A stretch of 64,000 bases of DNA, from positions 11,125,065 through 11,189,064 of the forward strand of contig CM038916.1 of NCBI GenBank assembly GCA_021904315.1, read 5' to 3'. The stretch is from Sphagnum magellanicum. Taxonomy: Eukaryota; Streptophyta; Sphagnopsida; Sphagnales; Sphagnaceae. A program made the position numbers and the translations under genes. This document shows, piece after piece, positions 7,353-58,718 of this stretch. The notes beneath the pieces were generated by a model that did no database searches, had not been told where the DNA came from, and saw nothing but the letters and a program-made list of their open reading frames with translations. Numbering within the stretch: position 1 is the first letter of the stretch; each line of letters starts with the position of its first letter.

Positions 7353-8080
7353 CCCCATTACTTTTTCTTCCATTGTTTTCACCTTTAAACTCGTATTTGA
7401 ATTTTACAAAAAGTTTGGGGGTGCGTCATATATGGATGTGTGGTTGTATATGTTTGTATATGCATGTATGTGGATGTGTATAGGTTTATTTGTGTTTTTT
7501 ATTGTTTATATGTATAATAAAAAAATGTGTGTTGAAAATAATATATAAATTATGTTGTACACATGTAAGTCATAGATATTTTGGTGTGTGATACATATGA
7601 TAATTTTCAAGATAAAATTTGGATATGGGTTTCATTTGGATATTCTTTTAGATACCTTTTTTTTTATGTGTGAAAGATTTAATGTGTTATTTTTATGTGA
7701 ATGTGAATGATATATGACAATTTTCAAAATAAGAATCGTTTGAATATGGGTTTCATTTGGATATTTGTTTTTGTGTGCGAAGGATGTAATGTGTTATTTT
7801 TATGTGGGTGAGAGTGATACATATAACAATTTTCAAAATAAGAATCATTTGAATATGGGTTTCATTTAGAATTCATTTTTTTCTATGTGTAGAATTTTGT
7901 GTGTTTTTTTAATGTGGGTGCGAATGTAAATGCTTGTTGTTTTGTGTGTGTTTCATGTCCATATTATGTTTGTATGTTTAATTTTTTAAAAATATAACTT
8001 AAATATGAATTTTTAATTAAAATATATAGTCGTAATTTAATTAGTTAATTGGTTTTTATGTGTTTATAAATATGTTTGTT

Positions 8081-8207
8081 TTCAACACAAAAAAATGGAA
8101 TGCAATAGTATACTTAGAAAAATTGTTCCCAATGTTAAGATTTAAACATTAACATTGGAGAACAATTTTTTTGTGTACACTATTTCATTTCATTTTTCTA
8201 TGTTGAA
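8081..8207. repeat. Fold-back (MITE-like) inverted repeat 1
   Basis: The left arm, 8081-8138, pairs imperfectly with the right arm, 8149-8207, across a 10-base loop. The inner pairing is nearly perfect (CCAATGTTAA against TTAACATTGG) and pairing extends out to TTCAACA/TGTTGAA. It could be a small MITE or yield a hairpin RNA. No target-site duplication was identified. Confidence 0.7.
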
Positions 8208-8451
8208 GGCATTATACCCAACAAAGATAAAAAATGTTACGTTATAACTTGTATTTATTATTAAAATTTTCAAAAATTTGTTTATTTTCTAAATTAATTC
8301 CTTAATGGCCACCATGTCATAATTGTTTGTGTTGTTGTAAGTGAATCATATTTTGGTTTGGATGTGGTGTACCATTCAACATATTTTTATTTTTTAGGTT
8401 TTAGGGGTTTGAGGTACATGTTTAATGTTTTGAATGTTACAAATTCTTCTT

Positions 8452-8715
8452 AAAAATAACAACCTAACAACCGAACACAGTGTTGTAATGATGATTGAAA
8501 ATAAATTATAGATTGAAATGCATTGTTGAGTTAAAAATAGATCAAATCATACATTTAATGCTCTATTTCTCATAGCTGTTATTGATTCTTTTTTATCAGC
8601 AATAGTTACGAAAATAGAACATTTGCACAATTTGATTTGTTTTTAACTCAACATGTAGTTGAATCTATGATTCTTTTAATCAACATTGCAACATTCACAC
8701 CATGTTGTTATTTTC
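8452..8715. repeat. Fold-back (MITE-like) inverted repeat 2
   Basis: Two arms of about 125 bp pair imperfectly around a short centre near 8590-8600. The outer ends match (AAAAATAACAAC near 8453; GTTGTTATTTT near 8704). The middle shares TGTTGAGTTAAAAA (about 8524) with its complement TTTTTAACTCAACA (about 8640-8653). Like its neighbour it looks like a non-autonomous DNA element or an inverted duplication. Flanking duplications are not clear. Confidence 0.65.
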
Positions 8716-11700
8716 ATCATTAAACTACTCATTAGCATCATCATAAGTTCATGATTTTAATTTGTCCAGCAAAAAAAAAGTCAACTCGCAACTTTGAATT
8801 TGTTTTTCAAAGCTTGATATCATGTAGCACTAAATTTATTATATAATGTGAGTCTTGCACTTTATTTTTCAAATCAAATCTTGTTTTTGTTGTAATAAAT
8901 CATGATTAATAATCTTAAATATAATTGTTTCTAAACTTTATTTTATCGTTTATGAATGAATTTGACCACATACCCAGAAGGGTAAATTTTGTGTGTGTGT
9001 GTGTTTTTTTTGAGCTTTTCTTTTTGGTCCTAGTGTCCACTAGTGATTTATAATTGAAAGTTTGAATAACTATAACATTGTCAAATTATTGTTTGGATTT
9101 TTGGACTTTTAAAAAATTTTAAATTAATTAAATATGTGTTAAACCCTAATAACATATTAACTCAAATTTCTTATATATTTTGTGATAATAATTTATATCA
9201 TCATGTGAAAAGGTGGTTTGATGGTAAAGCCTTAGGTTGTGACAAAATAAATGAAGATTCAAATCTTGTTTGAGACATGTTGTGTATATGACATTATCAT
9301 GATGACCCCAAAACAATAAAAATAAATAAATATTGAGGTTAGATTCATGGGCTTAATGTGATTGAGGATTTGTTCATAATTCAAATATGAAATAATAATA
9401 ATTATTTAAAAATGATTTATACGATTATACATTAATATTGGCACATCAATTAATAGTTTCAGCCATCTCAATCATTTTAGATAGCCACATCAATAATTAT
9501 AATCATTTAAAATAAACTTTTCAACTTTAAAAATAATCAATTTTTTGTTATAAGAAATTGGTTCAATCTAGTTGAGGATGTTTTTGTTTATTGCGACTAA
9601 AATTTCGATCATAAAAAACCAACATTGAAACCATGTTATGTAATATTGGTGTGTTTAAAAGAAAACAACATTGAAGTTTTAAAGTGAAATTTTATATTCC
9701 AAACAATATTTTTATGTTGAATCAGAATAAAAATGATTAAAAAATAAAAGTTCAATAAATGATTATTATTTTGATGGTTCTTGTAATTGCAAAAAAATCA
9801 TATTTTATTGACATAATTCTTTCATTGACAATTTTTGATGATGTCAAACATTACATTGCACATGTTGAACTTCAATCAAAGTGCAATTAATTTTTAATTT
9901 TTGTAATTCTTACATTATTATTTCTATTATTTGACCTTTTAATTTTGAATTTTTTTTTTTGAAAATATAACAATTTTTTAGGGTCAAAAGTCATGTTACA
10001 TCTTGTCATGTAGGGAAAATAAGGCAAAATAAACATGTCTAGATCTTTGTCAATGTAAATGAAAAATATTCATAAAATAAGATTTGATTTACTAAGATTT
10101 TAAAAATTACTATTGATTTAAATGATGAATATAAACATGTTTTTAGTTTTATTAGAATGATTTAAAAAAATCTCAAGTTTAATATACATTTAAATAGATT
10201 CTCTTTTCTTACACAATGGATTTTCAAAATTTAAGTTAATGAAATTGGTAGGTATATTTATGCTCGTTCAACTTTTTCATATAATAGTAATAATATATTC
10301 AAATTTTAACATAGAAGTAAATTTGAACACCACATTGATTAATCAATTTCAAATGCATTTGTTACTTTCTTTTATTATAATAAAAAACTGCAATTTTCGT
10401 ATTTAACTTGCCATAATTTAAATGCAAAACCATATGTATTCATAATGAAATTTAAAAAGATTTTGAATTTACTTTTGTATTCATGTAAAAAATTGTCTAT
10501 TTTTAAAAACTACATTTTGTGAAAGTTATTTTATCATGCTTACACTCAACATCCTATGTATTTTTCGAATATTGCGTTGGTCAATAGGCTTCCTTTTTTA
10601 TAAATATTCACCTGACAAATGTTGCAAAACAAACCCAAAGACCTTTGAATTCACATCATTAACGAGTAATATTCTACAAAAAGAAACACACAAATATACA
10701 ACAAAATGTGTAAGTAATAATTTCCTTGTCCATGTCATAAGAGTTAGATCATAGATCATTGACCATAGGCAAAATAATTTTTAAAAAAAATATAGCCACT
10801 CGTGAGGGAAATGGAATTGGCTATACACATAAATCTTGGCATAGTTGGACTTTATGAAACTTCCCCACATCATATAGAATTGTGAGACATGGAACACACT
10901 CTTCATCATTAAAATTATGAACCTTAATAAAAGAAAGATGAAGTTTAAAGATTTAATTGCTTCAAACTTGGAGCAATTTGAAACATCATAAACATACAAA
11001 TTGTTCAAATGACATAATTATTGTTAAATCCATATATAATATACATGAGTTATAACAAGGAGATGTTGAAGACGTTTTACATGATCCAAGTCCCCTAAAG
11101 GAATAGAGATAGATGAATTAGAAGAGGATTAAGACATGGGGGGCGGGGGGTGGGGAGATTGAGTCCTCTTTTGAACAAACAAAAGAGACTCCAAAAGATC
11201 ATCCTATTTATTGACAAACTTCTTGAGACATTTCTCAATAACTACTTCAATTGAGGAAATCCCTTCTAAACTTTGTACCTTGAGATCTAGAGAGGATATC
11301 TAGTTTTGTAAAAATAGTATTACCAATATAAGAATTGACTTGTAACATTGGGTACAATTATACTCACAATCACTTGCAAGATTTTCTAGATTTTTGAGGA
11401 ACGAATAGACCTTCCAATCTCCCTATAGTTGAAGAACTCTTAAGTCAAGTGACTTCCATGCAATAAAGGGAAAGGACCAAAACTTCTTGACAATGGAAAG
11501 GAAGACAATCTAAAACACTTTTGAAGGTTTAGATCTATGCTATCGGTATAAGAGGAGACAAAGATGAAGATACCTAAATCTCTACCCAAGGAAGGATGAC
11601 TCTAGACCAGGAATCTAGTTTTCTTTGAAACTTAACATCCCATGCTTGTTGCAAGAAATTTTGAGCAAAGTTTATGCACAAAGTTTTGCAAAGCCATTCT

Positions 11701-12437
11701 GATATTCAAAGGAGATATCATGGATGCCAAGTTTCTCCCTGCAAGAAATTTTCTAGATTGTGTCTGTCTAGTTTCAATCCTCCTGTGGGATCATCAAACA
11801 AAAGATGGGCATCAGAAATCAAATCAAGGCTATGATTGCAAAGTGTGCTAAAGGATTTAGCTTCAGACCTCAGCACTTCTTCTCGATCATCATCATCATC
11901 CAGTCTTTATAGTTGTTGTCAGAAGTGTCAGCATTTTGTCTGAACTTTCTGCTCCATCTTCTCTGTCATCAACCCTTGTCACTTCTAATGTTGCTGGAAA
12001 CATGAAGAAGGTAATCTATTTTTGCTTCTAATCTATTATCCAGTTCATGAAAATTTCTCTTGCTAGAAACATGAAGAAGGTACTCTGAGTGCAAAGGAGT
12101 AATTACTGTCACAGCTTAATGTTTTGTACTAAGGCCCACACCACCACCATCATGGTTGAAGCTTCTTCTCCCTGGCTGTAATTGAAGAACCAAGGTGCAC
12201 ATCATCAGATGGGAAAGCTCAGTTGAGCTCCGTGCAACAGTAGAGTAGCATTGCACTTTTGTTCAGAAATGCAGCAGCTACTGTGAGTGGGAAGTTCACG
12301 TACCAAATGTTGACTGATGAGATCCAGATCCACCTTCGAAATCCAAAAGGGTTGCAACCTTCCTTCCTCGTGGGATCTTCCAGAAGAAAATCCATCGTGA
12401 TCTATAAGCTCATCATCATCGCAGTTTCCTCCTTCTC

Positions 12438-12903: not shown

Positions 12904-14892
12904 ATGGCAGGAAAACCCAACAAGAAAACCTGCAAGAATGATATAGGCGATGGAAGAAGAAGCATGGCGTCGAATGACCATCTCGTGCAGCAGCAGCAGC
13001 ACGCCTCCAAGCTGCTGCCGGAGGACTGCAGTCTGCATGATGAAGGAACCAGCAGCAGCTTGCCAGCTGAGTACTACCGCAGAAGAGCTGATCGTCACCA
13101 TGATGACGACGATAAGAAGCTGTCTGTGTCGTCTCTGCTGTCTGTGTCTCCTCTGTTGTCCGGCGGCAAGTCGAAGCTGTCGAATAGAAGAGCTGCTGCA
13201 GCTTTGAGGAGAAGTGTCACTCCGCAGCGGATTCGTACTGAACCGAAGTCGACAAAGCAGCTGCAACTGGCGCAGTCCCCAGCTCGACCAGGCGAGAGGA
13301 ATACTCTTCTCGGGTCGAAGGAGAAGAAGAAGAAGAAGACTGGAGCATCCTCGTCTTCTACTCCTGGAGCTGCTGGTGACTGCAGACTTGTGATGAGATC
13401 AGCGAGATCCTTGGGCAGTACTACTACTACAGCAGCTACAAGTGACGGCTCATACGGTCGGACTCCAGGAGTTGTTGCAAGACGCAAATCGCTGCTTGAG
13501 GACTGTGATGATCGCGGCTGCACTTGCGCGAGCTATACTACATCTGGATCCGGAAGTGACGATATCAGCAGCAACGACTACACTGACGAAAGCTCGGACC
13601 CAACTGATGATCACTCGAGTACAGACAATCACAAGTCTAGCGAGGGTTTCGAGTATTCGGACAAGTACAGTGCATCATCTCATGACTGCAAGGGCAACAA
13701 GATCAGCTATGATGATCATAGTAGTGATCTCGTTGTCATCAGTCCCGGAAGCTCCTTCAAGTCCGGTCGCTACATGGTGCTTGAGAAGTTGGGACACGGA
13801 AGCTCCTCGAGTGTTTGGCTTGTTTGGGACTCCATCCAGCATCAGTATGTCGCATTGAAATTGCTGCTGCATAAGAGTGTGGAATCCAGAAAGTGGGCAA
13901 AGGAGGAGGAGATTCAGATACTCAAGCATATTGTGAAAGAAGATGCTCTCAACTGCGAGAATGTGGTGAAGATGTATGACCATTTTGAGCATGAGAAGCA
14001 TCAGTGTATGGTGTTTGAGCACCTGGGTGTCAATCTCCGTACGCTGCTGACACAGAACAGTTCTTCCCAAGACTACCCAACAGCTGCAGCTGGTCTTCCT
14101 CTTCAGATTGTGAAGCATCTTGCAAGAGAAATCCTTTCAGGACTCGATTTCTTGCATCATCAACTGTCTCTGGTTCATAACGACTTGAAGCCGGAGAACA
14201 TACTGCTGATGATTCCTTCTGCCAGAAATTCCAAACTCCCTTTGGATGATGATGCTTGTCTTCTTCCTGCAAAGTCCTCATATTCAAGAGGACAAAAGTC
14301 TCTCAGTATTAGTAGTAGTAGTGCTACTGTGATTGCTTGCTGCAATGACCCGAAATCTGTTCAAGCTGCCTTTGGCTGCAAGTTAGCAGATCTGGGTTCA
14401 GCATGCTATGTGAAGAGTCTGCCCAGCAAAAGAATTGTCCAAACTCGGCCATATCGATGTCCAGAGATTCTTCTGGGAGCTGCACTATCACCTGCAGCAG
14501 ATATCTGGTCCTTTGGGTGCATGGTTTTTGAGCTTGCAACAGGCTGCATTTTATTCGGTAGCACAGGTGCAGGAAGGACATGTCATCACAAGGATCTGCA
14601 TCACCTTGCCTGCATGTGGGAGATTCTTGGCCCAATTCCCCGCAAGGTCTCTTCCACAGGGAAGTATGCACGACACTACTTCAAGTCAGATGGAAAGCTT
14701 CGTCATTTTGAGAAAGCATCACTGAACCAAGTTGGTACTGGACATCTGGAAGAACTGCTGCAAAAGCAACATGGGCTTCCAGGGAAGGAGGCACATGAGA
14801 TTGCACAATTTCTTTACCCATTACTAGACTTTGTGCCAATGAAGCGACCATCCACTTCACAATGCCTTGTTCATCCTTGGCTTTCTCTCTAG
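12904..14892 (+). CDS. SRPK-like serine/threonine protein kinase (CMGC group), intronless
   Basis: A single 662-codon frame. Residues 1 to about 285 are low-complexity, rich in Ser, Asp, Lys and Thr. The kinase domain runs from about 289 to the end: glycine loop GHGSSSSVW, catalytic Lys319 (VALK), catalytic loop HNDLKPEN with Asp427, DLG at 496-498 in place of DFG, an activation segment with TRPYRCPE, and DIWSFGCM. The YVALKLL context, the DLG, the 'YRCPE' segment and a roughly 55-residue Ser-rich spacer between HNDLKPEN and DLG favour the SRPK family, which phosphorylates Arg/Ser-rich splicing factors. CLK or DYRK relatives are the alternative. The first ATG has a sensible context and a TATA-like box upstream. 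An intronless copy could be lineage-typical or retrocopy-derived. Regulation is unknown. Confidence 0.85.
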   Translation: MAGKPNKKTCKNDIGDGRRSMASNDHLVQQQQHASKLLPEDCSLHDEGTSSSLPAEYYRRRADRHHDDDDKKLSVSSLLSVSPLLSGGKSKLSNRRAAAALRRSVTPQRIRTEPKSTKQLQLAQSPARPGERNTLLGSKEKKKKKTGASSSSTPGAAGDCRLVMRSARSLGSTTTTAATSDGSYGRTPGVVARRKSLLEDCDDRGCTCASYTTSGSGSDDISSNDYTDESSDPTDDHSSTDNHKSSEGFEYSDKYSASSHDCKGNKISYDDHSSDLVVISPGSSFKSGRYMVLEKLGHGSSSSVWLVWDSIQHQYVALKLLLHKSVESRKWAKEEEIQILKHIVKEDALNCENVVKMYDHFEHEKHQCMVFEHLGVNLRTLLTQNSSSQDYPTAAAGLPLQIVKHLAREILSGLDFLHHQLSLVHNDLKPENILLMIPSARNSKLPLDDDACLLPAKSSYSRGQKSLSISSSSATVIACCNDPKSVQAAFGCKLADLGSACYVKSLPSKRIVQTRPYRCPEILLGAALSPAADIWSFGCMVFELATGCILFGSTGAGRTCHHKDLHHLACMWEILGPIPRKVSSTGKYARHYFKSDGKLRHFEKASLNQVGTGHLEELLQKQHGLPGKEAHEIAQFLYPLLDFVPMKRPSTSQCLVHPWLSL

Positions 14893-19090: not shown

Positions 19091-19099
19091 TTAGGGTTT
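19091..19099 (+). promoter_or_regulatory. Telo-box-like motif upstream of PNPase
   Basis: TTAGGGTTT, the complement of the plant telo-box AAACCCTAA, lies about 40 bp before the PNPase ATG and is followed by a pyrimidine stretch and a GA run (about 19,117-19,133). Telo-boxes are common in leaders of plant genes for translation and organelle gene expression. Function here is inferred from position only. Confidence 0.35.
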
Positions 19100-19136
19100 T
19101 CTTTTCCTGTATAGAGCGAGCGAGAGAGAGAGAAGC

Positions 19137-21933
19137 ATGGCACAGAGGAGAAGATGGGCGGGGGCTGTAATGAGAGGAGCGTTTGAAGCTGCTAGGGGAG
19201 CGTCAGGAAGGTCTGGGGCATGTCCATGTGCTCAGTTTCACATGCTGGCACCATCCCCTGTGTCAACTCCTCCTTCTCAGCTTCTACCCTTGTGGCAGGG
19301 AAGAACTCCGGTTTCCCAAAGGTATGTTTCCAGCGTCTTGAAAGCCTTGCAGCAGGTGAATTTTCAAGAGCCTCCTGCTCCCTGGCGTCAATTTCCAACC
19401 AAGGGGCAAGTCTTTGAAGAAAAAGTTGAGGTCGGGATGGAGACAGTGACATTTGAGACTGGAAAGCTTGCTCAATTTGCTTCAGGTGCTGTTGTATTGG
19501 GAATGGGAGATACCAGAGTGCTGGTAACTGCTGTTGCAGATCATAGTGTGGATGAGAGGAGAGACTTCTTACCTCTGCAAGTGGATTACAGAGAAAGGCA
19601 ATATGCACAAGGGAAAATACCTAATACGTTCATGCGGCGTGAAGGAGCACCAAAGGAACGTGAGCTTCTTTGTAGTCGACTCATTGACAGATCAATCCGT
19701 CCTCTCTTTCCAAAGGGTTTCTTTTATGATACACAGATCATGGCTAATGTAATATGCTCAGATGGAGACCAAGATCCTGATGTGCTTTCTGTGAATGCAG
19801 CATCAGCAGCATTGATGATTTCTGACATCCCTTGGAATGGACCTGTTGGATGTGTGCGCATTGGTCGTGTAAAAGGTCAGCTAGTTGTGAACCCTAACAT
19901 GGATGATCTGACTGAGAGTGACTTGAATTTGGTGTATTCGTGCACAGCAGAGAAGACAATTATGATTGAAACCCAGGCACGTGAAATCACAAATGAAGAT
20001 TATGTTACTGCTCTCCATCTGGCACATGCAGAGGCAGCAAAGCTCATCCCAGCGCAGATCAGTTTGGCTGCACAAGTGAAGAACCAAAAGCGGCCACTGC
20101 AAGCTTTGACAGTGGACCCAGAAGTGATTGAGAAAGTCCGAATCCTTGCAGAGGATGCGATTCAATCTGTCATGGGGAATCCTGCATTTGGTAAATTTGA
20201 GCGGGGGAAATCTCTTAGCAGAATCGAGGAAGAGGTGAAGGGAATACTTGAATCAGAAGGGGATGAGGCAGCCGTCAAAATTCTGCCTTATGCATTTGAT
20301 GCAGTGAAGAAGCAGATCTTGCAGAGGAACATTTTTGAAAAGGGAGTTAGAGTAGATGGTCGAGCTCTACATGAGGTTCGAGATTTGTATTGTGAGGCAG
20401 GGACATATCTCCCTCTCCATGGCTCGTCACTTTTCTCAAGGGGAAACACTCAAGTCTTGTGCACTGTCACAATGGGAGCTCCAGATGATGCACAAAAACT
20501 TGATTCTCTTGTTGGAATGTCAAGAAAGCGGTTCATGGTCCATTACAGCTTTCCTCCATTCTCTATAAATGAGACTGGTCGTCTTGGGGGTTTGAATCGT
20601 CGTGAAGTTGGTCATGGAACCTTGGCTGAGAAAGCATTAGTTGCACTTCTTCCACCAGAGGAAGATTTTCCCTACAGTGTGCGAGTAACATCAGAATGTC
20701 TTGCATCTGATGGATCTTCTTCAATGGCGACTGTATGTGGGGGTAGTCTTGCATTAATGGATGCAGGGGTCCCACTACGAGAGCATGTGGGTGCAGTCTC
20801 TGTAGGACTGGTCAGTGTAACTGACCCTTCAAATGGGAACATAACAGATTACCGTATCCTGACTGATATTTTAGGATTAGAGGATCACCTCGGGGACATG
20901 GACTTCAAGATTGCTGGCACCCGAAAAGGCATTACTGCAATTCAGCTTGACATCAAGCCAGCAGGTATTCCATTGCACATCATCTGTGAGGCTCTGGAAC
21001 CTGCACGAGTTGGTCGTTCACAAATCATAGAGTTCATGGAGCAAACTATTTGCAGCCCCCGAGATGCTCAGCGAGAGAATATGCCTCGCAGTGGCACCAT
21101 GACTATTCATCAGGACAGTATTGGGCGACTCATTGGTCCTCAAGGGTCAAATGTAAAAGGCATCCAGGTAAATATTTATATGACTTCATGGCAAAAGCTC
21201 ATATCTATGGTAGGAATAGTTTCAATAGTGTTATTCTTGGGCTTCCATTCTTGGGTCTTTGGGTGGGTATGGGCAATCACTGAGATCAATACTCTGGCAT
21301 TGTTAACCTCCAATGTGGAGATGATCCCCATCCAAAGATTTCAGAATTTCAGAGCTCCAAGTTCTAAGGTCTTCATATTCTGCATCCAGGGGACTTTGTG
21401 TTTTGTGGTTGCATCAATGTATTGAATGGTTTTTAAAAATTGAAAGCATTCTTTTATTGGGATGGCTTTTGGAACAGAGGGTGACAGATGCACGGGTAAG
21501 CATTTCAGAAGATGGTGTGGTGACCATATTTGCAAGAGACCAGGCATCTTTTGATCAGGCAAAATCAATGGTGGAGGCTTCAGTTGGCAAAGAGGTTGAA
21601 GTGGGTAACACATATGTTGCCAAAGTGGTAGCTATCAAAGACTTTGGGGCATTTATGGAGCTTGATGGAGGCTACCAAGGCTTGCTTCACATTTCAGAGA
21701 TTGCCCATCAACGCATCGAGCGTGTCACTGATTTTCTAACGCTTGGGCAGCAGCTTTCTGTTGTCTGCATAGGTCGGGACTTACGAGGAAACTTGAAGCT
21801 CTCTCGGAAAGCAATTTTGCCTCCACCTCCTGCTCTGCAAACAGTCCTTGAAACTGATGCTGACACCTTGCAACCATCAACAGCAAGTTTGTTGAAAGCT
21901 GCTCAATTGAAACGTTTGATGAATGATTCGTGA
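19137..21933 (+). CDS. PNP2: Polyribonucleotide nucleotidyltransferase (PNPase), mitochondrial
   Basis: Two exons, 19137-21167 and 21478-21933, join in phase 0 to give 828 residues. The enzyme degrades RNA 3' to 5' by phosphorolysis and trims and removes mitochondrial transcripts in plants. Residues 1 to about 90 are basic and Ser/Ala-rich like a transit peptide. Two RNase PH cores follow. The first includes ETGKLAQFASGAVV and PNTFMRREGAPKERELL. The second includes FSRGNTQVLCTVT, GLNRREVGHGTLAEKAL and the active-site stretch DILGLEDHLGDMDFKIAGTR. The KH domain (GPQG) is split by the intron, and an S1 domain lies at about 719-790 (VGNTYVAKV...GLLHISEI). Motifs such as FETGK, QYAQGKIPNT and LDSLVG favour the mitochondrial over the plastid paralogue. 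The intron is stop-free for 86 codons (see findings). Confidence 0.93.
21168..21477 (+). other. PNPase intron, open in frame for 86 codons
   Basis: The donor GTAAAT follows CATCCAG and the acceptor is AACAG before AGGGTGACAG. Exon phases match (0/0), and the joined protein has the expected KH spacing. Read through, the frame stays open to a stop near 21,425 and encodes a hydrophobic stretch (VGIVSIVLFLGFHSWVFGW). Confidence 0.8.
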
Positions 21934-27568: not shown

Positions 27569-28132
27569 ATGGTAGCCACCAAACGGAGCAGTACCCATGT
27601 GGAGTTCAATCCGAAGCAGAAAGGAGGAGGAGGAGGAGGAGGAGCAGGAGCAGGAGGAGGAAGTAGTAGTAGCAGTAGCGTTGTCAGTGAAGGCGGGGTG
27701 GTGGCTGCTTTGATTGAACCGCTTGGAGGTTTCATCTTCGTGTGCAACAATGATACCATGAACGAGGATTTCGAGCGCCATCTATTTGGTAAAGAAAGCC
27801 TCCCAGAGTTCATCTTTGCCTTTGTTGTGCCTTCGTCCCCTTGCAGCAATTCCGTTTGTTTCCTTCCCAGCTTCTTTTTCTTCTTCTTGTTCTCCTCCTT
27901 GGGTTTCTATATTGAGCTTTTGTTCCTGGATCCAACTATTGTTGGGTGGCAAGGTTTCTGCTTGAATTCTGTATGTGGGTTTTGTAATTCTGGAACCTCT
28001 GCAAAGGTATGTGTGGGGGTAATGTATCTGGATGGCATGACTGTGATGTGGATTCTGCCATTTGCAGTTGTGCCAGAACAACTCTTTTGCAAACATTGTA
28101 TGAATGAATGAAGACAGACCCTGAAAGACATG

Positions 28133-28195
<63 letters not shown>

Positions 28196-31100
28196 CTCTT
28201 TTTTAGACTGTTATTTCTTCATCGAGCAAAGGCTAGGGTTTCATTGGAATCACACTCGGAGGAGAACAGAGAGAGAGAGAGAGATTCTCATTTGGAGACT
28301 GTTATTCTTTCATTCTGCAGAGGGTAGGGTTTCATTGGAATAACACACAGAGGAAAACAGAGATAGAGAGAGATTCTCTTTTGGAGACTCTGTTAATCCT
28401 TCATCGTTCAAAGGCTAGGGTTTCATTGGAATCACTCTCAAAAGAAAAAAGCTCAAGCCCTTTGTTTTTTGTATCAAAACAGATTCACCCATTGTATCTG
28501 TCTGTCTGTCTGTCTGTCATTCATTGCACATCCCTTCTCTTTCCTCCACTGAGAGAAAAAAGTTTTTGACAAAATTTTCATCAATCTAGGGTAATGGAGT
28601 TTCTGCATTTGTCTCGTCAAGCTTGCTGCCAGCCTAGCAAGCCCTATTTCCAGGCACCCTAACCCTCGGGATGCTGTTTACTCTATCTCCACTTTGTTTG
28701 ACTTCAGCCCTAGCCCTTCAATCTTCATGACATAATGAGGTACACATTTGCAATCGTGCACAAGCTGGCACTTTTGAAGCTTCCTGTATTGTGGTTTTAG
28801 GAGGTAAAATCCAAAAGATATCTCTGGGGCCATCTCCAGGCCTCCCCTTTTGCATGCATATGTTTGCTAGGGCTTTAGGAGGGCATTCCTTGCACACTTA
28901 GGGTAAACTAGGTTGGTGAGGTTCTGAAGCCTAGAGTCAGTGTAGAAACCTGTGTTTGTGAGGAGGTACAAAATGGCTGGAGTTCTCCATGGAAATTGGT
29001 AGTGTATTATGTTCCACTTTTAAGATGTGCTGATTCTCCAAAACCGACAGAGGGTACCATTTTTTATGGAGTTTGTTTTCTGAGTCCTTGCATTTCTGTA
29101 ATACCCAGTTTTGTGTGTTGAATGAATGTATACAGGGCTGCCTCAAAGGTATCAAGATACTGTGCGGGCCATACAACCAGGGCTACCTCTTTTTCTTTAC
29201 AATTATTCAACTCGGTGTTTGCATGGTGTATTTGAGGTTCCCTTCTCTGTTGCCACCACTCTCCTTCCACTTCCCTCTTTGAGCCTTGCTTTCTTGGAAT
29301 ATATGGTTTGGTGGAATGTATGTGCAAATGTATAAGAAGAGTCTACAGACGGCAAGAAAAAAAAAGCTCACAGCAGATCTGAACTGTTTTCCTCGAAGTT
29401 TGTGAGGAGTTGGTTATTAAGATTTTGTGTCTTATGGTGCGTCCCGTTTGTAGGCATCAAGTGACGGGGGCTTGAACTTAGAGCCAGGTGCTTGGGAAAA
29501 CAAAGACACTCGCAAAAATGGTCGGCAACAATCATCTCGGTTTCCTGCACAGGTTGTTGACTTACTTTTTCCATCATTTGCATGGTCATGATGAACTTGT
29601 GAATGTGGGAATGTTCAAGCATGATCGGTTATGCATTGCCTGAATTCACGAATTTTCAGGGATCCCCTCTAAAAGATTGTTGCAAACTAGTGAGATAGCA
29701 ACGTGGACCTGATGAGCAAAGGGTTTTTCTCTCTCTCTGAGTTTTCTTCAATGTTACAGGTCAGAGTGCGGTGGCGAGAACAGAGACCTCCTCTGGAAGA
29801 GGAGACATTCCGCCCATTGCTGTATCACTATGATGGGCCAAAGTTCCGACTTGAGCTTTCCAAGGCTGAGGTAAGCATCATATCAGATGGGTTCTTTATG
29901 AACTACTGAATGTCTGATGGCAGTCCAAAAGAAAAGAATTCTGATCTAAGTTGCAAAGTATATGACTTCTTGGTTCTTGGTGGATGAAGCAATTGTAGAA
30001 GTGTGTTTCTTGGTTAAACTTCTCCTGCGCTGCTGTTTAATACAAATAATGTCTGGTGCAGGCAGATGATTTGTTGAAGCTGTTTGGAACAACATCCCAT
30101 CACCACCAGGAGATGGTGGAAGCTGAAGAAGATTTTGGAGGGGAATGGGAGAAGGTGAAATCCAAGAGTAAATTGACTCGGATAAACCGTCCCCCTCCTT
30201 CCAAGAGATCCACTTCCCCAAATTCACCAGCAGCAGGGCGAAAGCGGTGGGGCCCACTAGCCAATGGCTCCGCCACCACCAGCAGCACTGCTGGAGCAGC
30301 TCACTCTAGTCACAACACTCCTGTAAATGGTGATGCTTTCATTCATGGCAGGGAGTCCAGGGCAGATATTGCCCAAAGGTGGAGATCAGATTCGGACTCT
30401 TGGAGTGGTTCTTCGAGTGCAGGTATATCTTCTTCTAGTTGGGTTTCACAGGATGATGATAATAGTAAGCCTAAGAAGGGGAGCAGCAGAGAGGACGGAG
30501 GGTCACTTGCTCACACAAGTACGACTGGCGAGTTTTGTGAGTCCCATGACGAGACGATTTTGAAAGGTGAAGAAGAAGAGCAGGCAAATGGGTGCCTTGA
30601 GGATGGCAGTGAAAGGGACTCCAGAGCTGATTCTGAAGAGCTGTGCGTGGAGTTGAATGCTGTGAGAAGTAACAAAGGTTGGGATCCCCAATTGGATCCG
30701 CAAGCACCTGTGCGTGGAGAATTTATATCGTACAGTGCAGCCTTGAAAGCTGGCACAAATGTTTCTGGCACAGAGAGTTGTAATATTGATGGCCTTAGTC
30801 CTAATGCAGGTTCTGAAGGTGGAGATGGTGGGCAGATTGCCAGCACCATTGTAAGTGCAGCAGGGAGCAATAGAGCTTCTTCTTCCAGTACAGGTGGTGC
30901 CCTGACACCATCCACTCCTGGAGATGTTAGGATAGGTGTGTCAAAACAAGCAATAGAGCCTAGGGCAAGAAGCAAAGGCTTGAATGTGGATGGAGGGTAT
31001 TCACAACCAATTTTGGATGGTGTGAATCTAGGTGTGCAAGGAAGGCAAGAACAGAAAGAGGATGTAGTGATTGGGGAGGGAGAGGTGAAGAGAGGAGATA

Positions 31101-34100
31101 AGGTGCCAGCAGCATGGAGCAACAGCAAGTCAACTTTGGCTGCCAGGTTAGCAGGTGCAGAAACTGAGTCTGCTCCATCAGGAAGGTTACATGGAATCTG
31201 CAAATCTGTTGTGAATGTGGGTTCTGTGGACTCCAATATAGGGAGGAAAAAAATAGATGAGGATGGGTCCAGGAATAGGTTGCAGGAGAGTGAGAGAAGA
31301 GTAGATAGATGTGGTGGCAGCAGCCCTCAAGCAAGGCAGGTGATTGTAGGTGCTAGAGATAACACAAGCAAGCCACTGGATACTGCTTCCAGGACAGTTG
31401 CCTGGCAAGGAAATGATGCAGCTGTCCTTCGCCGATTGCATGAACCTCTGTTGGCAGTGAGTGATAATAGCTTAATGAATGGTAGTTCTTCTGGGCACCC
31501 ATCATCTCCTCATCTTGATGCTGTCAAGACTAAGCCAGTTGTTGTGGCTACAGCTGCCCCTCTGCAGCTGCGGGCCCCGCTGGCAGTGGCAGCAGATAGT
31601 AAGCAAAATGCTCAGACTACAATGTCTGATGAGCTGATGCAGAGTGCTTGGCCTGTGGATGTCTTGGCTGAAGTTCCTCAACTGTCTGCAGTGTTACCCT
31701 CCCCGAAAGGACTGCATTCAAGAAAAGGTGCACAGACACCACCGTTCCAGCCCAGTTGTCCTGTCCATGAGCCGTGGAGGGGCCAGCAGAATGACCAGTT
31801 AAAACAAGAGGAACAGGCAGAAGAGAAGGTGCATGTTCAGAACATGCAATCACATCAGTACCGACAGCTTGGTCAGAATTTGATGCCTCTTCGAATACCG
31901 ACACCTACTCCATCTTCTTTGCAGCAGCAACAACATCATCGTCACCCACCTGTCTCACCTGCCCCTTCCAACACTTACTACCGTGACCGTGCACAGGCAC
32001 GCATGCGCACAGGTGCAAGTTCTGTTGATGCAGGCCCTCATTTAGTAGCCTATCGACCTATCAGCCGAGTTCCACCAGATGGAGGCACAGGATTCCAGAA
32101 TGGGTACATACAAGGAGGTTGGGGATTCCCTTCCCCAGTGCCATTGTTGACACCAATGTCCCCGATTGGGGATGATGGGTTCTTTGCACTTCCACCACCT
32201 CAGTTATTGGGTAATGTGGACATACTGCACATGGAGATTGCAGAGTTTGCTGCAATTGCAAGGCCATCACCTGATGCCAGGATTCGTGCAGAAGCTGCAG
32301 TTGATTGTGTCCGTGAGGCTGTGAAACAACTTTGGCCTGGCGCAGATGTTGAGGTGAGAGCACCAGAACTGTTCCACTCATTCCCAGGCAATTGGTTTCT
32401 CCATAGCATCCTGGTTCTAACTCCTGTTATATGAAGTTCCTCCTTTCATGCCTTATTAGCTTTGCTTTTGTGGTGCACCTGATTTAGCAAAAATGTGGGT
32501 TCAAACTACCAGATGTACAATTTCAAACTCTGTGGTCACAGTTTCTATTGAAATCCTGAATCTTATAAGTGTACTGATCTTTGTGATATTTGTCAGGTAT
32601 TTGGCTCTTTTGCGACTGGTTTATGCCTACCCCACAGTGATGTGGATGTGGTGGTAGTGGATTCACCTCCTCTTCCTGATACACCTGAAACTGCTGCACT
32701 GTCGGGTGCACGAGCTCTTGCTCCGTTGATTCGAGTCTTGGGTACAGCTTTAAGAGGGTATGGATGGTGTGAAAGTCTCAACACAATTGATTCAGCATCT
32801 ATGCCAGTGATTAAGCTCCACTGCAGGCCCTCCATCACATCTGTGGAGGGCTGCCAACCCACTTCTCCAACCACTTCTGTTGCCATTGACATAACAATCG
32901 GAGGGAGAAAGACAGGGAGCCCTGGAGGAAGAAATCAGGAGGCAGCAGAGAGACCTGGCAGTAGTGGTGGTGGAGAAAGTCTGCAAATAAATGCAAAGTT
33001 TGAAGCAGCAACAAAGTCTCACAATGGTGCAGCAGCAAGGGAGTATGTGATTGAAAGGCTTCGGCAATTCCCTGCATTAGCACCCCTGGTATAGCTGTGC
33101 CCAATCAAATTTGCTCATGCATTCATTGCTGCTATTTCTCTTTCATTCAGTATGCTGTTGCATGATGGACAATCATCATTTCTAGTTCTGATGGCAGGTG
33201 CTTCTACTGAAGTCGTATCTACACCACAGAGGTCTGAATGATGTCTACACTGGAGGTCTTGGATCATTTTCACTGACACTCATGCTAGTGTTCTATTTGG
33301 AGGTAAATTTTTTTCTTCTGATACCAGGTTTGTTGAAATGTTTCTGTGTAGTTGTTTGTTCATTTGTTTCTTTTTGGCAGCAGTTAGATTACATGTTCCT
33401 CCACTGTCTGTAAGGCCACAACTTGTCTGTCATGAATCTTACCATTTCATGCCTGTGGCAGCGAGCACCTGTTTCCTGTGGCATCTCCCAAGGTTCATTG
33501 AGACCCCAAGAAGCTCCTCCTCCTCCCTCAGAGTCGGCTCTGGCTTCTTCATCTGTGAGCTTGTTGCCTCTGAGCAAACCACCTGTTGATTGTTCACTGG
33601 CATCTGTATCATCAGGCACAGATTCCTTAGACTCTTTTGATGAAGGTGCTTCCTACTCCTCGGGATCAACTGACACAACAACCTTGGCATCAACTAGAAC
33701 CTCTGCTTCTTCTTCTTCTTCTTCAAGTTGCTGTTCTGAAACATCTTTATCACATGGTGGGTATTTTCATACCGAATTGTGGCATTTTGGTGTTTGAAAG
33801 TCTTTTGCATGTAATGCTTGAAGGGGTGCTAAAATGCTTTGATTTTCTTTTTACGGGTTTAGGGCAAGAGCTTCAAGGTGTGGCCATATAGCCAACTGAA
33901 CCCCGCAGCCCCCCCTGATTTTGAACATTGGGTCTGAATCTTTTCAGCTACAGTTCCATGGAGTGACACCATCACCTGATGGGTTTCAACGTGGAATTTG
34001 ATTTCAAGCTTTTTGGCTTGCTTCATGTAGGAAATGATGATGATGTGCAAAGTGGGTGGGTCTCACTTGGGAGGATTCTCTTTTTCTCCTGTAGTAGTGA

Positions 34101-35381
34101 GCCTGGATTCTTGAGATGAAAGAAACCTTGCAGTTTCTTGTGATGTGAGAAAAAGGGTTTCTCTAACCTAGCATTGAAGGACGCCCACTACCCTTCTTTT
34201 TGGATTCTTTTCTCTGCCTATGTTTCATTGCTGCAGCGTATGTTAAAATCAGTCTCTATGAATCTGATATGAGCAATTGATGGTTGGACTGTCTGCAGGA
34301 GGGACACCAATTACAATAAATTTGTCGACACCTGTTCTTTCAAGCAGTGGTGAGCCTGCCATCCGAAGGGCAGGAGGCATTGTGGAGGAGCTGCTCATAT
34401 CTATGCAATCAGTGCCACCTCCCAATCTGGGGCTGTTGTTAATTGGCTTTCTGCAAAGTTTTGGGAGAGAGATTGACTTTTCACATGTCCGCCTTGTCTT
34501 GAAGGTACTACACATTGCAGTCCATTGTGCTAGTGTAGAGATAGGAGGATGTATCTTCTCATGTATCTGAAGACTTTCTGTCAGCTTCTTATGTGCCTTT
34601 TGTTTGGGAGGATTACAGGGAAGAAATGGGACCAGTGGGGTTTTAGGGTTTAAGGTTTACTACACATACAGTCGATTGTGCTAGTGTAGAGATGGGAGGA
34701 TCTAACTTCTTGTGTGTCTGAAGACTTTCTGTCAGCTTCTTATGTGCCTTTTTGTTTGGATGGATTGCAGGGAAGAAATGGGACCGGCGGGGGTTTGTTT
34801 TGGGCTGACAAGGTTTCACGACCAATGGCACTCTGTATTGATGACCCTCTTCGTCCTGGTGCCAACATTGGCGCTGGCTCATTTAACATGTTTCATGTCC
34901 AAGTAAGACAACAATAAAAACACCCCCTCTGTTTCATTCTATTGCAGCATGTGGGTTAAAATCTGGCTGTTGGTAGACACTTTTCAGCTCTCAAGGTTTG
35001 AATAGAAAATCAGATTTGCTTTGGGGATTTATCTTCTTGTATGTCTATTTCCAGAGCTAGTAATCACAGGTGAAGCTACTTCATGCATAACAAGGGGTGC
35101 AATTGAATCGCTCTTTCTGAGCATTGAAGAGTGCAATCTGGTCGAGTGCAGTTCTTTCATGGCATGTTGTGCGCCAGGTGGTGTGTGAGATTCTAACTTG
35201 TAGTTTGCTTCCCATATTCTATACTCAGGTGGCAATGCAAGACATGCTTCAAATGTTGACAAGGTCTTTGGGAGTGACAAGCTCTGAGAGGGTTGATAAT
35301 ACGGACCCCAGCTGCAGGCAACCCTTACGGTTATTGGATCAACTGTTTGTAATGGACAACTTGTCAGCTGCGACTCAGTAG
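27569..35381 (+). CDS. DCD domain fused to TRF4/Cid14-type non-canonical poly(A) polymerase
   Basis: Eleven exons give 1401 residues: 27569-27788, 29136-29236, 29454-29552, 29760-29870, 30062-32353, 32597-33088, 33198-33302, 33462-33756, 34299-34504, 34771-34902, 35229-35381. All phases close. The N-terminus is Gly/Ser-rich. A plant DCD domain covers about residues 52-185 (GFIFVCNNDTM, FLYNYSTRCLHGVFEA, KFRLELSKAEADDLLKLF). A 700-residue disordered linker follows. The nucleotidyltransferase begins near 900: GSFATG...SDVDVVVVD (Asp956, Asp958), third Asp in AIDITIG (about 1039), then YTGGLGSFSLTLM, NLGLLLIGFLQSFG and ALCIDDPLRPGANIG. Enzymes of this type add short A tails that mark nuclear RNA for exosome decay. 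The catalytic triad is present. DCD domains act in plant stress and cell-death proteins. The exon that ends the DCD domain continues into the linker, so this is one gene. A Ser-rich stretch of roughly 100 residues interrupts the polymerase part. Confidence 0.82.
28134..28193. repeat. GA microsatellite in intron 1
   Basis: An uninterrupted (GA)n run of about 58 bp lies in the first intron of the DCD-polymerase gene, just left of a 90-bp minisatellite. Confidence 0.95.
28184..28450. repeat. About 90-bp minisatellite, three copies, intron 1
   Basis: Three copies start near 28,184, 28,275 and 28,363. Each runs GAGAGATTCTC, GGAGACT-like, a TTCATC...AAAGG-like block, TAGGGTTTCATTGGAAT and a final AACAGAGA-like tract. 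It seems to have grown from the edge of the adjacent GA run. A TCTG run follows at about 28,498-28,518. Confidence 0.75.
28520..29135. other. Remainder of intron 1 of the DCD-polymerase gene
   Basis: No further exon is seen. The phase-1 donor at 27,788/27,789 and the acceptor TATACAG before 29,136 restore the DCD reading frame directly. Confidence 0.6.
34503..34795 (+). repeat. Tandem duplication spanning a splice acceptor (intron 9 / exon 10)
   Basis: The block from about 34,503 to 34,645 is repeated at about 34,655-34,797. Both copies share TACTACACAT, TGTGCTAGTGTAGAGAT, GAAGACTTTCTGTCAGCTTC and GGGAAGAAATGGGACC. The copied unit includes the acceptor and the first bases of exon 10, so a decoy acceptor lies at 34,617-34,618. 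The decoy frame hits a stop about 60 bases in. Confidence 0.8.
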
Positions 35382-47984: not shown

Positions 47985-50900
47985 ATGGGGAAGGCAAATC
48001 CTAGCAAGTGGTTGAAGGCTGTGACAAAAGCATTCAGATCTCCCGCAAAGCTTGACAATGCTGCTGATACCAGAGATGATGATGTTGATGATCAGGTAAA
48101 TGATGGGGCTTGGAGCTTTGGAAGAAGCAACCTCTCTCTCTCTCTCTGTCTCTCTCTCTGTGTCCAGATGTCCCTGTCTCCATCTCCATGTCTGTCTCTG
48201 CCTGTCTGTGACTCTTTTCTCATGATCTTTTGTTTCTGATTGTTGTTGTTGATGATGATGATGTTTTGATGCTGCTGTAAATGGGTTTTATTTTATTTTT
48301 TGCAATGAAGACGAAGGGGGATACAGCCAAGGTGAAGAACAACAAGTGGCGCTCAAATTTCAGCTTGTCATCCACTACCACCACACCAGTGCCAACTCCA
48401 CTCCCACTACCGACGACGGTAGTAGATCACAAGTCTAATACCATTCCAAAAGTGGTTGAACAGGAGGAGGAACAGAGTGAGCGAACCTTTTCAGATGCTG
48501 AACTCACAGCTGAGGGTGATCAAGCATTCAATGTTGTAGATGGATTTCACAAGGAAGACAGTTCACAATTGAAGGCTGGTGGTGGTAATGTTCAGCTTCA
48601 TGCCAATGGCAAGGTTCTTGGTGCTGCTGCTGCTGTGAGCAGAGAAGAATGGGCAGCTATCAAAATCCAGCAAGCCTTCCGTAGTCACTTGGTAAGGGTA
48701 GAATCTGTGGTGGTTGGTTGTTTCTTTCCTTTTGGTATGCCCTTGGGTGAATTTCCACAAGAAGAAGAACATGGATTGAATCTCATGACACTCTCTCAGC
48801 AGTTTTCTCTCTCCATCTGTGTTTTGTGGGCATCTCTCATGTACCCACCGGAACACCTGTTTCGTGGGCACGATCTCTCTTGTAGCCACCAGACCATTTG
48901 TTTTGCGAGCATGATCTCTCTCATGTACCCACCAGACCATCTGTTTTTGTGAGCATGATCTCTCATATACCCATTTTTCTTTTGCTTACCCCCAGGCTAT
49001 GAAAGGTCTGGTAAGACTTCAAGCATTGGTTCGTGGACACACGGTGAGAAGACAAGCTGCCACAACACTACGAGCTATGGAAGCTCTTGTGCGAGTGCAA
49101 GCTCGTGTGCGAGCACGCCAGGTACGCATGTCAGAGGATGGGCGAGCTGTACAGCAGCAGCAGATGAGACAACGCCGCCAGCTTCTTTCTCGACCTAGTA
49201 AAACTGGCACTGTATGTCCCCATTCTCATACTGAAATTGTTGTTTGCTGCCAGCTACCACTTTTACTACATACAGATCATCCAGCTTGAATTATCCATTC
49301 ACATCATCATCGTCATCAGAAACTGCAAAGACAAGAAAGAAGTGAGTTTTGGTTCTGCTCTTTTTTACAGGAAGGAAATTGGACAACAGGGCAAGACAAT
49401 AAGGCAAAACAACAAATTCGAGAAGAGGCAGCTCGAAAGCGTGAGCGAGCCATGGCGTATGCATTCTCTCAACAGGTAGGTTTCCATAACTGTTTTAGCA
49501 GCTCTCAATGTGTGGACAGCAGCAGATTGTCTTTGGTTGCCAGATGGTTCTGCTGTCAGCTGTCATCATTTTTTTGTGCTGAAATTGAATGACATCATCT
49601 CTCTCACTGCAGGTGGCAGTGGCAGCAGATTGTCTTTGGTTGTCAGATGGTTCTGCTGTCAGCTGTCATGTTGTTGCATCATTTTTTTGTGCTGGAATTG
49701 AATGACATCTCTTTCTGAGACTCTCTCTCTTTCTCTCTCTCACTCTCATACATGTGTGAATTTGGAACAGTTGAAACGGAGCACACCACAGAGGAACATG
49801 CTGTTTATTGATTCGGAACCTGATCAACCGCATTGGGGTTGGAGTTGGATGGATCGCTGGATGGCTGCACGTCCATGGGAGAATCAAAACCTGGATCCTC
49901 TGAAAGATGGTTGTTCTCAAGCCATTCCATCCATGAAGTCCTCCCTTGAGGCCAGGACAAAACATGTTGACAAGCATGTTGTTGTTGACTCGGGCACTGG
50001 TGATATGCGCCTCAAGGTCGGTGGTGGTGGCAAATCTTCAACAAAGAAAGGTGAGGAAAAGCAACACAAGGATTCTTTGGCATCTCAACTGCCAACAGTA
50101 CAATGTACTGGGAAAGCTGACGCCATTCCTTTGCCCCTTCCATCTCCACCATGCCTTCCTGCTGCTGTTTCCACGGTTCCAAAGGATCCCACATCCACAG
50201 AGCAGACAACAACACTACCCATGACAGCAGTTCAGACACTGCCATTGTCTGCAGATGCATCCTTTTCCTTAGCTGTGGATGAGAACACTGGTGTGACATT
50301 GCCAGCACCTCCAGAACATCTATCCTCTCTGAAAGTCCCATTGCCTTCAGATGATCTGCTGCCTAGTGAAACTTATGCATTGAAAAACATGACAACAAAT
50401 GGTGTGACGTCGGTTCACATTTCAATGGGCTGTAATGGTGCTGGTGAGCGTCAGGAAGACAAAAGTGCGGGCAAAGTTAGTCTGCAGCAATCCCCAGCAG
50501 GTAACCAACCTCTTTGTCTTAAAACCCACCACTTTTTGATCTTTACTCAAGCATTGAATTTGTGGGCGTCAGTCAGAAAGAGTTAATATTACAAACTTCT
50601 GTCACCTGACTCTTGTTCTCCAGAAGAAGTGTGAGTTTCATAGGTTCAGAATTCTTATCTCCATATCTACCACCACCAGCCTTTGTCCAGGAGGCAGGCA
50701 CAATGGAAACTGTTTTAAGAAGCTTGCACGGCTGCTCTTTGACAGAGAAAACACAGAGCTACAAACAGAGATCTCTGAATGACATAGCAAACAATGCAAA
50801 GGTGTCAGTGGTGGTGGAGAATGGTGAAATTGATCTCCCTGCAAGTTTCAAGCCAACAACTAGCCGCTACATGGCACCAACAGAATCTGCAAAGGCCAAG

Positions 50901-51352
50901 TTCCGCTTGCTTGGTAGCTCTCAAAATCAGATTGAGGGAGGTGAGGAAGCATCAGCATCACCAAGAAGACATAACAAACAGTTCTCATTTACTGATCAGG
51001 CTAGCTCCTCCCCAAGGACAGCAGCAACAACAACCCCCATCCCTCGTACAAAATCCATATCTCAGGTAACCACGATGGCTGAGCCCGTTGCTTGCTCTAA
51101 TAGGAAATCAAAGCTCAGGTTTTGTACTTGCCTTTTGACTACCTATTCATCTGGATTTTGATCTGATAGTTTTAAACCCAATCCTAAACCCTAAACTCTT
51201 TACAATCATGCAATCAGGAACGAGCAAGTCTGCCTGGGGTGGTCCTTTTCAAAGAGAAATTGGATGACTTTACTGGCAACTTCGAGTCACAAATTCGGAG
51301 AAAGTCTTTGGGAGCTGGTGATCAAGCAAAAGGTACCATGAAATGGAGGTAG
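47985..51352 (+). CDS. IQD protein (IQ67 domain, calmodulin binding)
   Basis: Seven exons: 47985-48095, 48311-48691, 48996-49211, 49371-49475, 49771-50500, 50680-51065, 51218-51352, giving 687 residues in frame. The start [20 protein letters not shown] is typical of the family. The IQ67 region spans about residues 149-207: [16 protein letters not shown], then, after the phase-0 intron conserved in IQDs, [18 protein letters not shown] and [34 protein letters not shown] and [16 protein letters not shown] follow. The C-terminal [13 protein letters not shown] is the DUF4005 block, and the protein ends MKWR. IQDs bind calmodulin and act as scaffolds at microtubules, membrane and nucleus in cell-shape control. 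About seven residues normally found at the exon 2/3 junction are absent. The exon 6 acceptor at 50,680 was chosen because it alone fits phase and family alignment. Confidence 0.88.
48835..48985. repeat. About 55-bp repeat in IQD intron 2
   Basis: Three partial copies of ATCTCTC(A/T)TGTA(C)CCACC, GACCATNTGTTT and GCGAGCATGATCTCT-like phrases fill the second intron. Confidence 0.6.
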
Positions 51353-54266: not shown

Positions 54267-55589
54267 TTAATCTGGTGGAGTGTAATAGATCTGAAGATCT
54301 CTACGAGACCTCTCCCACTGACGTCTATTAGCATCTTGGATGATGCATATTCGGCAGCCTTCCTTGAAATCAAAGTTGCCTTTGCCATCAGTATGGCCTA
54401 CAAACTGGTATGGACCTTCCCAGCTTGCAGTAAGCGTTTGCTTCTTCCCTGGTTTCTTCATCTTTACCATGGTCTCCCCTGCAACCAAACCTTCAAACAG
54501 ATGTTTACCCTTCTTGGTGGCATAAGTGTTTCTATGTTTCTGTTGTGCATGCTCCACATTGAGCAGGACGCTTTCATGAATACTTGCTATAAGCCTCACC
54601 TTCTGCAAGAATTGTGCTACAGCAACTTCGACATCATCACTATCATTAGCTACATTAGTCAAAGCATTCAGGTAGTTATCAGCCCTGAGACGTGGTGAGC
54701 GACCAGTTAGAATCATGCATGGAGAGAACTTTGTACTAGCTTGGATCCCACATCTGTATCCAAACAAGATTTTGGCCAGGTGCTCGTCCCAACAATCCAC
54801 ATTTGCAAGATTCGCAGCAAGAACAATGATACCATGCTTGATGGTTTTAATCATGCGTTCCGCCATCCCGTTGCACTGGGGCCATTGGGGTGCAGTGCGC
54901 TGATGTTGGATGGCATAATCCTTGCACATCACATCAAACTCTGCAGCCCACTCTCCTCCATTGTCAGTCAGTACAAATTTGGGAACTCCATACGTACAGA
55001 CTATGTCATCTTCCAAAAACCTGGCGGCAGTTTTAGCTCCATGATCAGCCACTGCCTTTGCTTCGCACCACTTAAAATAATGGTTGATGGCCTCCAGAAT
55101 GTATCTATTGCCTGACTTAGTCTCAGGCAATGGTCTAGCAGTGTCCATAGCGATTCTATGAAACAAATCACAGATGGGTATGGTCTTCAATTTTTCATCT
55201 CTAGAACGGACGCTACCCACACTCTTCACCAGCTAGCATTGCTGGCATCTTCTAACCACTGTCCGGACATCTTCAGTTCGATTGTGCTAGAAGTACCTTT
55301 GACAAATCTCAGTCAATGTTCTCTATTCTCCAAAATGCCCGAGATCTTCATGCATTTGAATCACCAGTGGAATCCTCTCCTCTGGTTTGGGCACATATAG
55401 CCCTTTGAAATAGAGCTTCTGCCCTTTCCAGCAGTAATTGTTTACCCTCTTCCTAGCCCTTTTTCCTTCCTCAGGGTCCATAGTATCAGGTAACTGACCC
55501 TCCTTCAGCAACTCCAAGCATGTGGTGTCTTGCCGGATGTCAACACTCCTTGCCTCCACACCATATATCTCGCCCTCATTTGATTCCAT
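54267..55589 (-). pseudogene. Ty3/gypsy integrase, interrupted
   Basis: The N-terminal piece (55589-55323) ends with the first half of an HHCC zinc site (HEDLGH). The other half (CQQC) lies about 100 bases on, in the same frame but beyond TAG stops. The core (55229-54267, 320 codons) has the DDE residues: Asp in AMDTARPLP, Asp in LTDNGGEW and Glu in GMAERMIKT. The C-terminal part includes WEGPYQF. Three in-frame TAG codons separate the pieces. Confidence 0.88.
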
Positions 55590-56090
55590 GAGATTCGACT
55601 CATGTTCCCCAAATTCAGACAGTTGCTAAGCTGCTAACACAAGCTCCAGCTGCTGTTGTCTATCATAGTATTGGGTCCTCCTCTCCTTGAGAGCTCGCTT
55701 ACCATCGGGAGGTCTCGAATTCTAATCTCCCTTACTATCTGCTCCTTCCACATCTTCCATATGTGAGTTATCTTCTTCATCCTGGCTTTCCTCAGTCACA
55801 ACATCAAGCATGAACAGTTGGTGATCAGCTAAGTAACGCCAATGGTTGATGCCAAAACAACACCAACAGTGCTCCATGAGCTTCCTTGCATGCCTCCTGA
55901 ATTCGAACCATTTCGAGTCCTGACCATATTGAACAGAGAACATACTTTTTGTCGCCTCAGTTGGATCATCAGGTATGGTCCCAACATCTTGGACCTCTTC
56001 ACTGAAATCATCATCATCCGTGGCCTACCCCACTGGATTTCTGCTCAGCGCATTAGCGTTGCCATGCCTTATTCCTGGTCTGTGTAAAAT
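55590..56090 (-). pseudogene. Degraded linker between RNase H and integrase
   Basis: Two overlapping minus-strand frames (55722-55943 and 55829-56017) carry acidic, Asp/Glu/Ser-rich fragments consistent with a decayed pol linker. No domain is recognisable. Confidence 0.4.
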
Positions 56091-56465: not shown

Positions 56466-56612
56466 TCACTGGCAGTCCTGATTCCATACAAATGGCACGT
56501 CCTTTTTCGTCAATTCAAATAAAGGACCAACCAACCTTGAATATTTTCTAATGTATTTTCGATAGTACCCTATCAGTCCCAAAAAGGATCTGACGTTGGT
56601 AACCATCTTTGG

Positions 56613-58706: not shown

Positions 58707-58718
58707 CTTGTTAAGTTG

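Follow-up and report, generated by a model that had tools for sequence, protein, structure and literature searches.

The moss Sphagnum magellanicum has a gene that joins a plant DCD domain to a TRF4-like terminal nucleotidyltransferase core within a single protein. The gene, CY35_10G065600, lies at positions 27569-35381 (plus strand) of a 64,000 nucleotide (nt) stretch of contig CM038916.1, hereafter the window, and has 11 exons, GT-AG introns and a frame of 1401 amino acids (aa) ending at 35381. In the protein the DCD domain (aa 53-185) is followed by a linker of about 700 aa and then by the core. The computation finds one gene with both domains, an intact catalytic triad, an EVE/YTH-like predicted fold and strong conservation of the DCD and, judging from the sequences compared, the fusion is conserved across streptophytes. 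Our reading of the whole, to which we give an even chance, is that of a tethered enzyme that tails RNA 3' ends: the DCD would bind RNA, the core would adenylate it, and decay or trimming by the exosome would follow.

The DCD starts in exon 1 (27569..27788), which also holds the start codon, a low-complexity N-terminus and, at 27785-27787, the Phe73 of the FGLP motif. It continues through exon 2 (29136..29236; GLP..., LFLYN, GVFEA), exon 3 (29454..29552; Trp121 at 29493-29495) and exon 4 (29760..29870), whose last residues, ending at 29870, are KFRLELSKAE. Exon 5 (30062..32353) begins with ADDLLKLF, which finishes the DCD (aa 185, 30085), and runs for 2292 nt or 764 codons through the linker into the start of the core, where the polymerase Pfam match opens at aa 900 (32228). 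These junctions, and the length of exon 5, are exactly as an earlier note on this DNA had read them. An open run of 764 codons has a chance of about 1e-16 if equal base use is assumed and this, together with the match to a deposited protein, rules out a chance open frame. The deposited protein (P0001, 1176 aa) is identical letter by letter to the 1401-aa model minus aa 456-501 and 541-719.

The same note had proposed a single gene fusing the two domains, and this is upheld. The 1401-aa model is a splice prediction made from the DNA, which is the point in favour of two adjacent genes having been joined in error. However, the DCD cannot stop before exon 5, because residues of that exon complete its profile. 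Further, in P0053, a protein that is Sphagnum-like by similarity, the counterparts of exons 4 and 5 form one unbroken frame, LELSKAEAEDLLKLF, with no intron at the junction; the frame continues through the linker to ADVEVRVT, beyond the counterpart of the exon 5 donor (JGI source, longest contig 9361 bases, DCD part also matched). Two more proteins, P0010 and P0013, have 1347 aa each and both domains and come from contigs no longer than 4918 and 5252 bases, which is too compact for an intron-bearing gene like that of the window. We infer that both are Physcomitrium transcripts: among pieces longer than 9 residues P0013 and P0011 show a single long difference, and P0010 resembles P0013. The name c29277_g2_i1 is presumably that of a Trinity transcript. 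The domain pair is also common to 49 of the 66 distinct proteins found in our searches, and we give an erroneous joining hardly any credence. For the family, the two-gene model is rejected on the end of the DCD in exon 5, the intron-less junction of P0053 and the 49 proteins with both domains.

The DCD match (PF10539, aa 53-185) scores 136 bits against a cut-off of 27.8 (E 8e-40) and covers the full profile, 1-126. The motifs of the domain, FGLP, LFL, PAQV and PLxE (PMC1182354), are present, at 73, 92, 138 and, as PLEE, at 151. The domain was folded separately, as the fold search with the whole-protein model was uninformative for it. Modelled alone, it is predicted to have a fold of the EVE/YTH (PUA-like) type across the domain. 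By sequence the best match has an E of 0.023, and Pfam at E up to 10 returns PF10539 alone.

This predicted fold favours a nucleic-acid reader of modified bases over an endoplasmic reticulum (ER) stress or cell-death module. The earlier note had linked the gene to such stress signalling, which is not supported as stated: the link derives from NRP/B2 proteins, which have a related DCD but no enzyme. It could still be argued that the DCD, as in those proteins, serves in stress signalling or protein interaction and brings the tailing enzyme to signalling complexes without touching RNA. NRP proteins transduce ER-stress cell death (PMC4943007), and the DCD paper of 2005 proposes protein interaction (PMC1182354). 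Also, among the DCDs found outside the fusion, the nearest belong to three proteins of flowering plants that lack a tailing core; their identity with the Selaginella DCD is 55-61%, and one of them is named as a B2 protein. Given a predicted fold shared with nucleic-acid readers and a fused enzyme of a kind acting on RNA, we consider this alternative unlikely, although it should be kept in sight.

Comparison of ten proteins shows better conservation in the DCD than in the core for nine of them; the core identities take in a Ser-rich insertion, which lowers the core values. This conservation speaks against the idea that the DCD has moved away from binding bases to become a cap, structural or regulatory, of the polymerase, and so does the linker, modelled as disordered, that lies between the two domains in P0001. 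On the other side, the two conifers and the two Closterium rows of the DCD alignment (47 of 54 DCD pieces, seven incomplete ones left out) have lost W121, and a few family members have a degraded DCD or none. In our view the prospect of such a cap is slim, and a reader of RNA is preferred.

Some moss isoforms carry a 15-residue insert exactly within FGLP, after the F, where the exon 1/2 junction falls. The pairs are P0008/P0007/P0017 versus P0006/P0016 in Ceratodon and P0012 versus P0013 in Physcomitrium. The insert looks similar in the two mosses, so it is possibly a case of conserved splicing that breaks the presumed pocket of the DCD. In the window this form is not seen: two in-frame stops fall within the 45 bases that precede the exon 2 acceptor.

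The core is recognized by PF22600 (MTPAP-like/NTP-transferase palm; aa 900-1040, 51.6 bits, cut-off 27) and PF01909 (aa 927-967, 39.8 bits, cut-off 21). PAP_assoc (PF03828) matches at its expected location, aa 1281-1335, with 15.3 bits, under the cut-off of 22.6. The catalytic palm lies in exon 6 (32597..33088), with Asp956 at 32639-32641, Asp958 at 32645-32647 and Asp1039 at 32888-32890, the intact triad that the earlier note had placed at 956, 958 and about 1039. The core continues in exon 7 (33198..33302; GGLGSFSLTLMLVFYLE), exon 8 (33462..33756), which holds the Ser-rich insertion and is modelled with low predicted local confidence (pLDDT), and exon 9 (34299..34504; PNLGLLLIGFLQSFG). Exon 10 (34771..34902) encodes IDDPLRPGANIGAGSF, and exon 11 (35229..35381) the C-terminus and stop. 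Among 28 family members counted, D956 and D958 are kept in 28 and D1039 in 27. By motif the triad is found in 51 of 54 members, the exceptions being P0004, with a gap at the third Asp, P0047 and P0060.

Both sequence and Foldseek give yeast Trf4 (3nyb) as the nearest solved structure. The enzyme might also be tethered in the same way and add tails of U, of C or of mixed composition, as URT1, HESO1 and CutA do, rather than of A: URT1 and Cid1 are among the top VIA rows of the structure search, with a Z equal to that of Trf4, and PAP_assoc is weak. However, the core sequence is far closer to Trf4 than to Cid1, GLD2 or TUT7. Further, at the column presumed to be that of the UTP-selecting Cid1 H336, none of the 38 members (out of 54) fitting the pattern has His, which we take as a lead. 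They have A in 23, V in 8, S in 3 and M, I, Y and F in one each, and the window gene has Ala, in exon 10. By eye, nine of the other 16 read A, V or I, P0065 reads L or Q, and six are unreadable. A uridylyltransferase is thus disfavoured by the His rule, and non-A tails are in our judgement improbable; an adenylating core remains the preferred reading.

Two core-directed searches, both depending on shared 5-residue words, were used to follow the fusion. The first, with the core alone as query, scored only the 7986 candidates sharing most words and returned 55 proteins, 46 of them with PF10539 and PF22600 together. The second started from a conifer core (candidates of 464-1475 aa, E up to 1e-10); its 56 rows contributed another three such proteins, so that both domains occur in 49 of 66 distinct proteins, a count that takes in isoforms and near-copies and in which rows are not independent species. 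Fourteen of the 66 come from the source 'lgn', presumably SRA assemblies, and the others include jgi, ena and eukprot rows. From the 66, 47 entered the alignment, 45 the core tree, 28 the triad count and 10 the conservation comparison.

Named carriers of the fusion are found in bryophytes (three species of Sphagnum, Marchantia, Riccia (2), Calypogeia, Ceratodon, Physcomitrium), in vascular plants (Diphasiastrum, Selaginella, Adiantum (2), Ceratopteris, Cryptomeria, Taxus) and in algae (two strains of Closterium). No fusion was seen in rows named as flowering plant in these two word-based core searches or in a DCD search. The sole such row in the core searches, Digitaria P0051 from the first, lacks a DCD. 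Neither core search gave a row named as hornwort, and in Klebsormidium P0058 the core occurs with no DCD. Sphagnum seems to hold at least two fusion copies, as diverged second copies were found in Sphagnum jensenii (P0004) and in a Sphagnum-like source (P0053).

In the core tree of 45 sequences a branch with support 100/98 separates the family from eight outgroup rows, on which the root is placed; these include no plant TRL, and several are long branches. Bryophytes group together (94/80), as do zygnematophytes (91/74). The tree conflicts in places with accepted plant relationships: conifers split first after P0065, and the named vascular plants fall into more than one group, needing two changes, not one. 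P0065 itself, from a JGI contig of 52,704 bases, stands at the family base on a branch of length 3.08 and has a divergent DCD (39 bits), PF22600 and a sub-threshold C-terminal RRM. It may represent a fusion far older than the others or else one that arose independently.

In the model of P0001, which has a shorter linker than the 1401-aa form, most of the linker is below pLDDT 50. The linker nevertheless contains islands, GEWExVK, RWRSDS, SYSAALK and WQGN(D/E), which recur in mosses and liverworts, though some rows lack them, and whose patterns mostly fail in ferns and conifers. In the window GEWEKVK (30140..30160) comes shortly after the DCD. WQGND lies at 31403..31417; WQGN(D/E) is shared with mosses, liverworts and zygnematophytes. 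Rows named SM..., of which we take SM000... to be Spirogloea, carry GDWEPVR, SYSAILK and WQGND, and Mesen1 is presumably Mesotaenium.

Three in-frame GT-AG stretches on the plus strand account for differences between deposited models. The first (138 nt, exon 5, 30894..31031) is absent from the deposited models of all three Sphagnum species compared. The second (537 nt, exon 5, 31155..31691) holds WQGND; it is missing from the deposited S. magellanicum model and kept in two other Sphagnum models. The third (387 nt, 30423..30809) holds SYSAALKAG (30728-30754) and is the piece missing in the S. fallax and S. jensenii models; the SYSAALK-bearing piece is also missing, at a similar place, from shorter Ceratodon and Physcomitrium forms. 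These differences look like alternative in-frame splicing, known from gene models alone.

Elsewhere in the window, a polynucleotide phosphorylase (RNase_PH, PNPase and S1 domains), also an RNA 3'-end enzyme, lies upstream on the same strand at 19095-21933 (+); the two genes are probably chance neighbours. An open frame at 12904-14889 (+) encodes a protein kinase, SRPK-like by eye. Sub-threshold matches to the IQ motif and DUF4005 at 48281-51161 (+) possibly mark an IQD-type gene, and 54267-58718 (-) holds pieces of a long terminal repeat retrotransposon (reverse transcriptase, aspartyl protease and an integrase slightly below cut-off). Positions 1-12000 are markedly AT-rich, with 24-34% GC against 34-50% elsewhere in the window. 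A plasmid search with one window piece gave no match, as expected for plant DNA.

How might the protein work? We propose that the N-terminal DCD, with its predicted EVE/YTH-type fold, binds RNA, most likely by holding a modified base near Phe73 of FGLP and Trp121; the residues forming the YTH/EVE cage are here those we presume. The long, flexible linker would give the core reach to the 3' end of the bound RNA, to which it would add a short, mainly adenylate tail, and the tail would mark the RNA for exosome decay or trimming. RNA rather than protein as ligand, the modified base, the pocket residues, the adenylate preference and the exosome link are all inferred.

If this is true, a single chain links the reader of a base mark with RNA tailing. 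Somewhat short of even, we would put the wider claim that it represents an undescribed, ancient class of plant RNA-modification effectors, in which one protein reads a modified base and writes a 3' tail on the same RNA. Such a class would date back to streptophyte algae or beyond; bryophytes, lycophytes, ferns and conifers would have retained it and flowering plants lost it, and the moss reader would possibly be switched by alternative splicing at FGLP. That nature has fused the DCD to an RNA 3'-end enzyme, and has conserved the fusion widely, strongly hints that RNA is the ligand of the DCD. Since the gene can be deleted in Physcomitrium and in Marchantia, either moss or liverwort would allow the question to be tested.

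The earlier note knew of no described DCD-polymerase fusion, and likewise no description of a DCD joined to a nucleotidyltransferase or TRF4 was found in the full-text literature searched, which leaves out most subscription papers. As to its question of whether the architecture is already described and common, databases hold many copies, under uninformative names where any is given ('DCD domain-containing protein', 'hypothetical', 'unnamed', 'uncharacterized'). In the available parts of two reviews of plant tailing enzymes (PMC13030794, PMC11518768) 'DCD' appears nowhere, with a count of 0 in the former, on ten Arabidopsis NTPs. Since no flowering-plant copy was seen in our searches, the work on plant tailing enzymes that is based on Arabidopsis, which is much of it, would miss this one.

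Compared with known systems, the moss protein shares with the TRF4/TENT4 non-canonical poly(A) polymerases (yeast Trf4, Arabidopsis TRL/NTP10) the core, GS...SDxD with the third Asp, and a GSF motif near the C-terminus; it differs in the N-terminal DCD, the long linker, the Ser-rich core insertion and the sub-threshold PAP_assoc. Arabidopsis TRL adenylates rRNA by-products, feeding the exosome (PMC11518768). The flowering-plant DCD proteins (NRP-A/B, B2, DCD-Kelch, ParB-DCD) have the same domain with FGLP, LFL, PAQV and PLxE, but the partners named in the available part of the 2005 paper are Kelch and ParB, with no tailing enzyme described alongside (PMC1182354). The DCD resembles the EVE/YTH readers (PH1033, MJECL36, YTHDF2, Mmi1, CPSF30-YTH) in predicted fold, with an identity of 11-19% in those rows. 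In heterokonts, CPSF30 orthologues with DCD, YTH and zinc fingers also place a DCD within an RNA 3'-end processing protein, although no nucleotidyltransferase is named in that chain in the part of the paper available (PMC7641849). The same logic is found in a route of Schizosaccharomyces pombe, where the YTH protein Mmi1 depends on the poly(A) polymerase Pla1 and the exosome, so that with MTREC a YTH-type reader and a polymerase pick RNAs for decay (PMC7018101). There the reader and the canonical Pla1 are separate proteins, whereas the moss gene encodes a single chain with a TRF4-like core.

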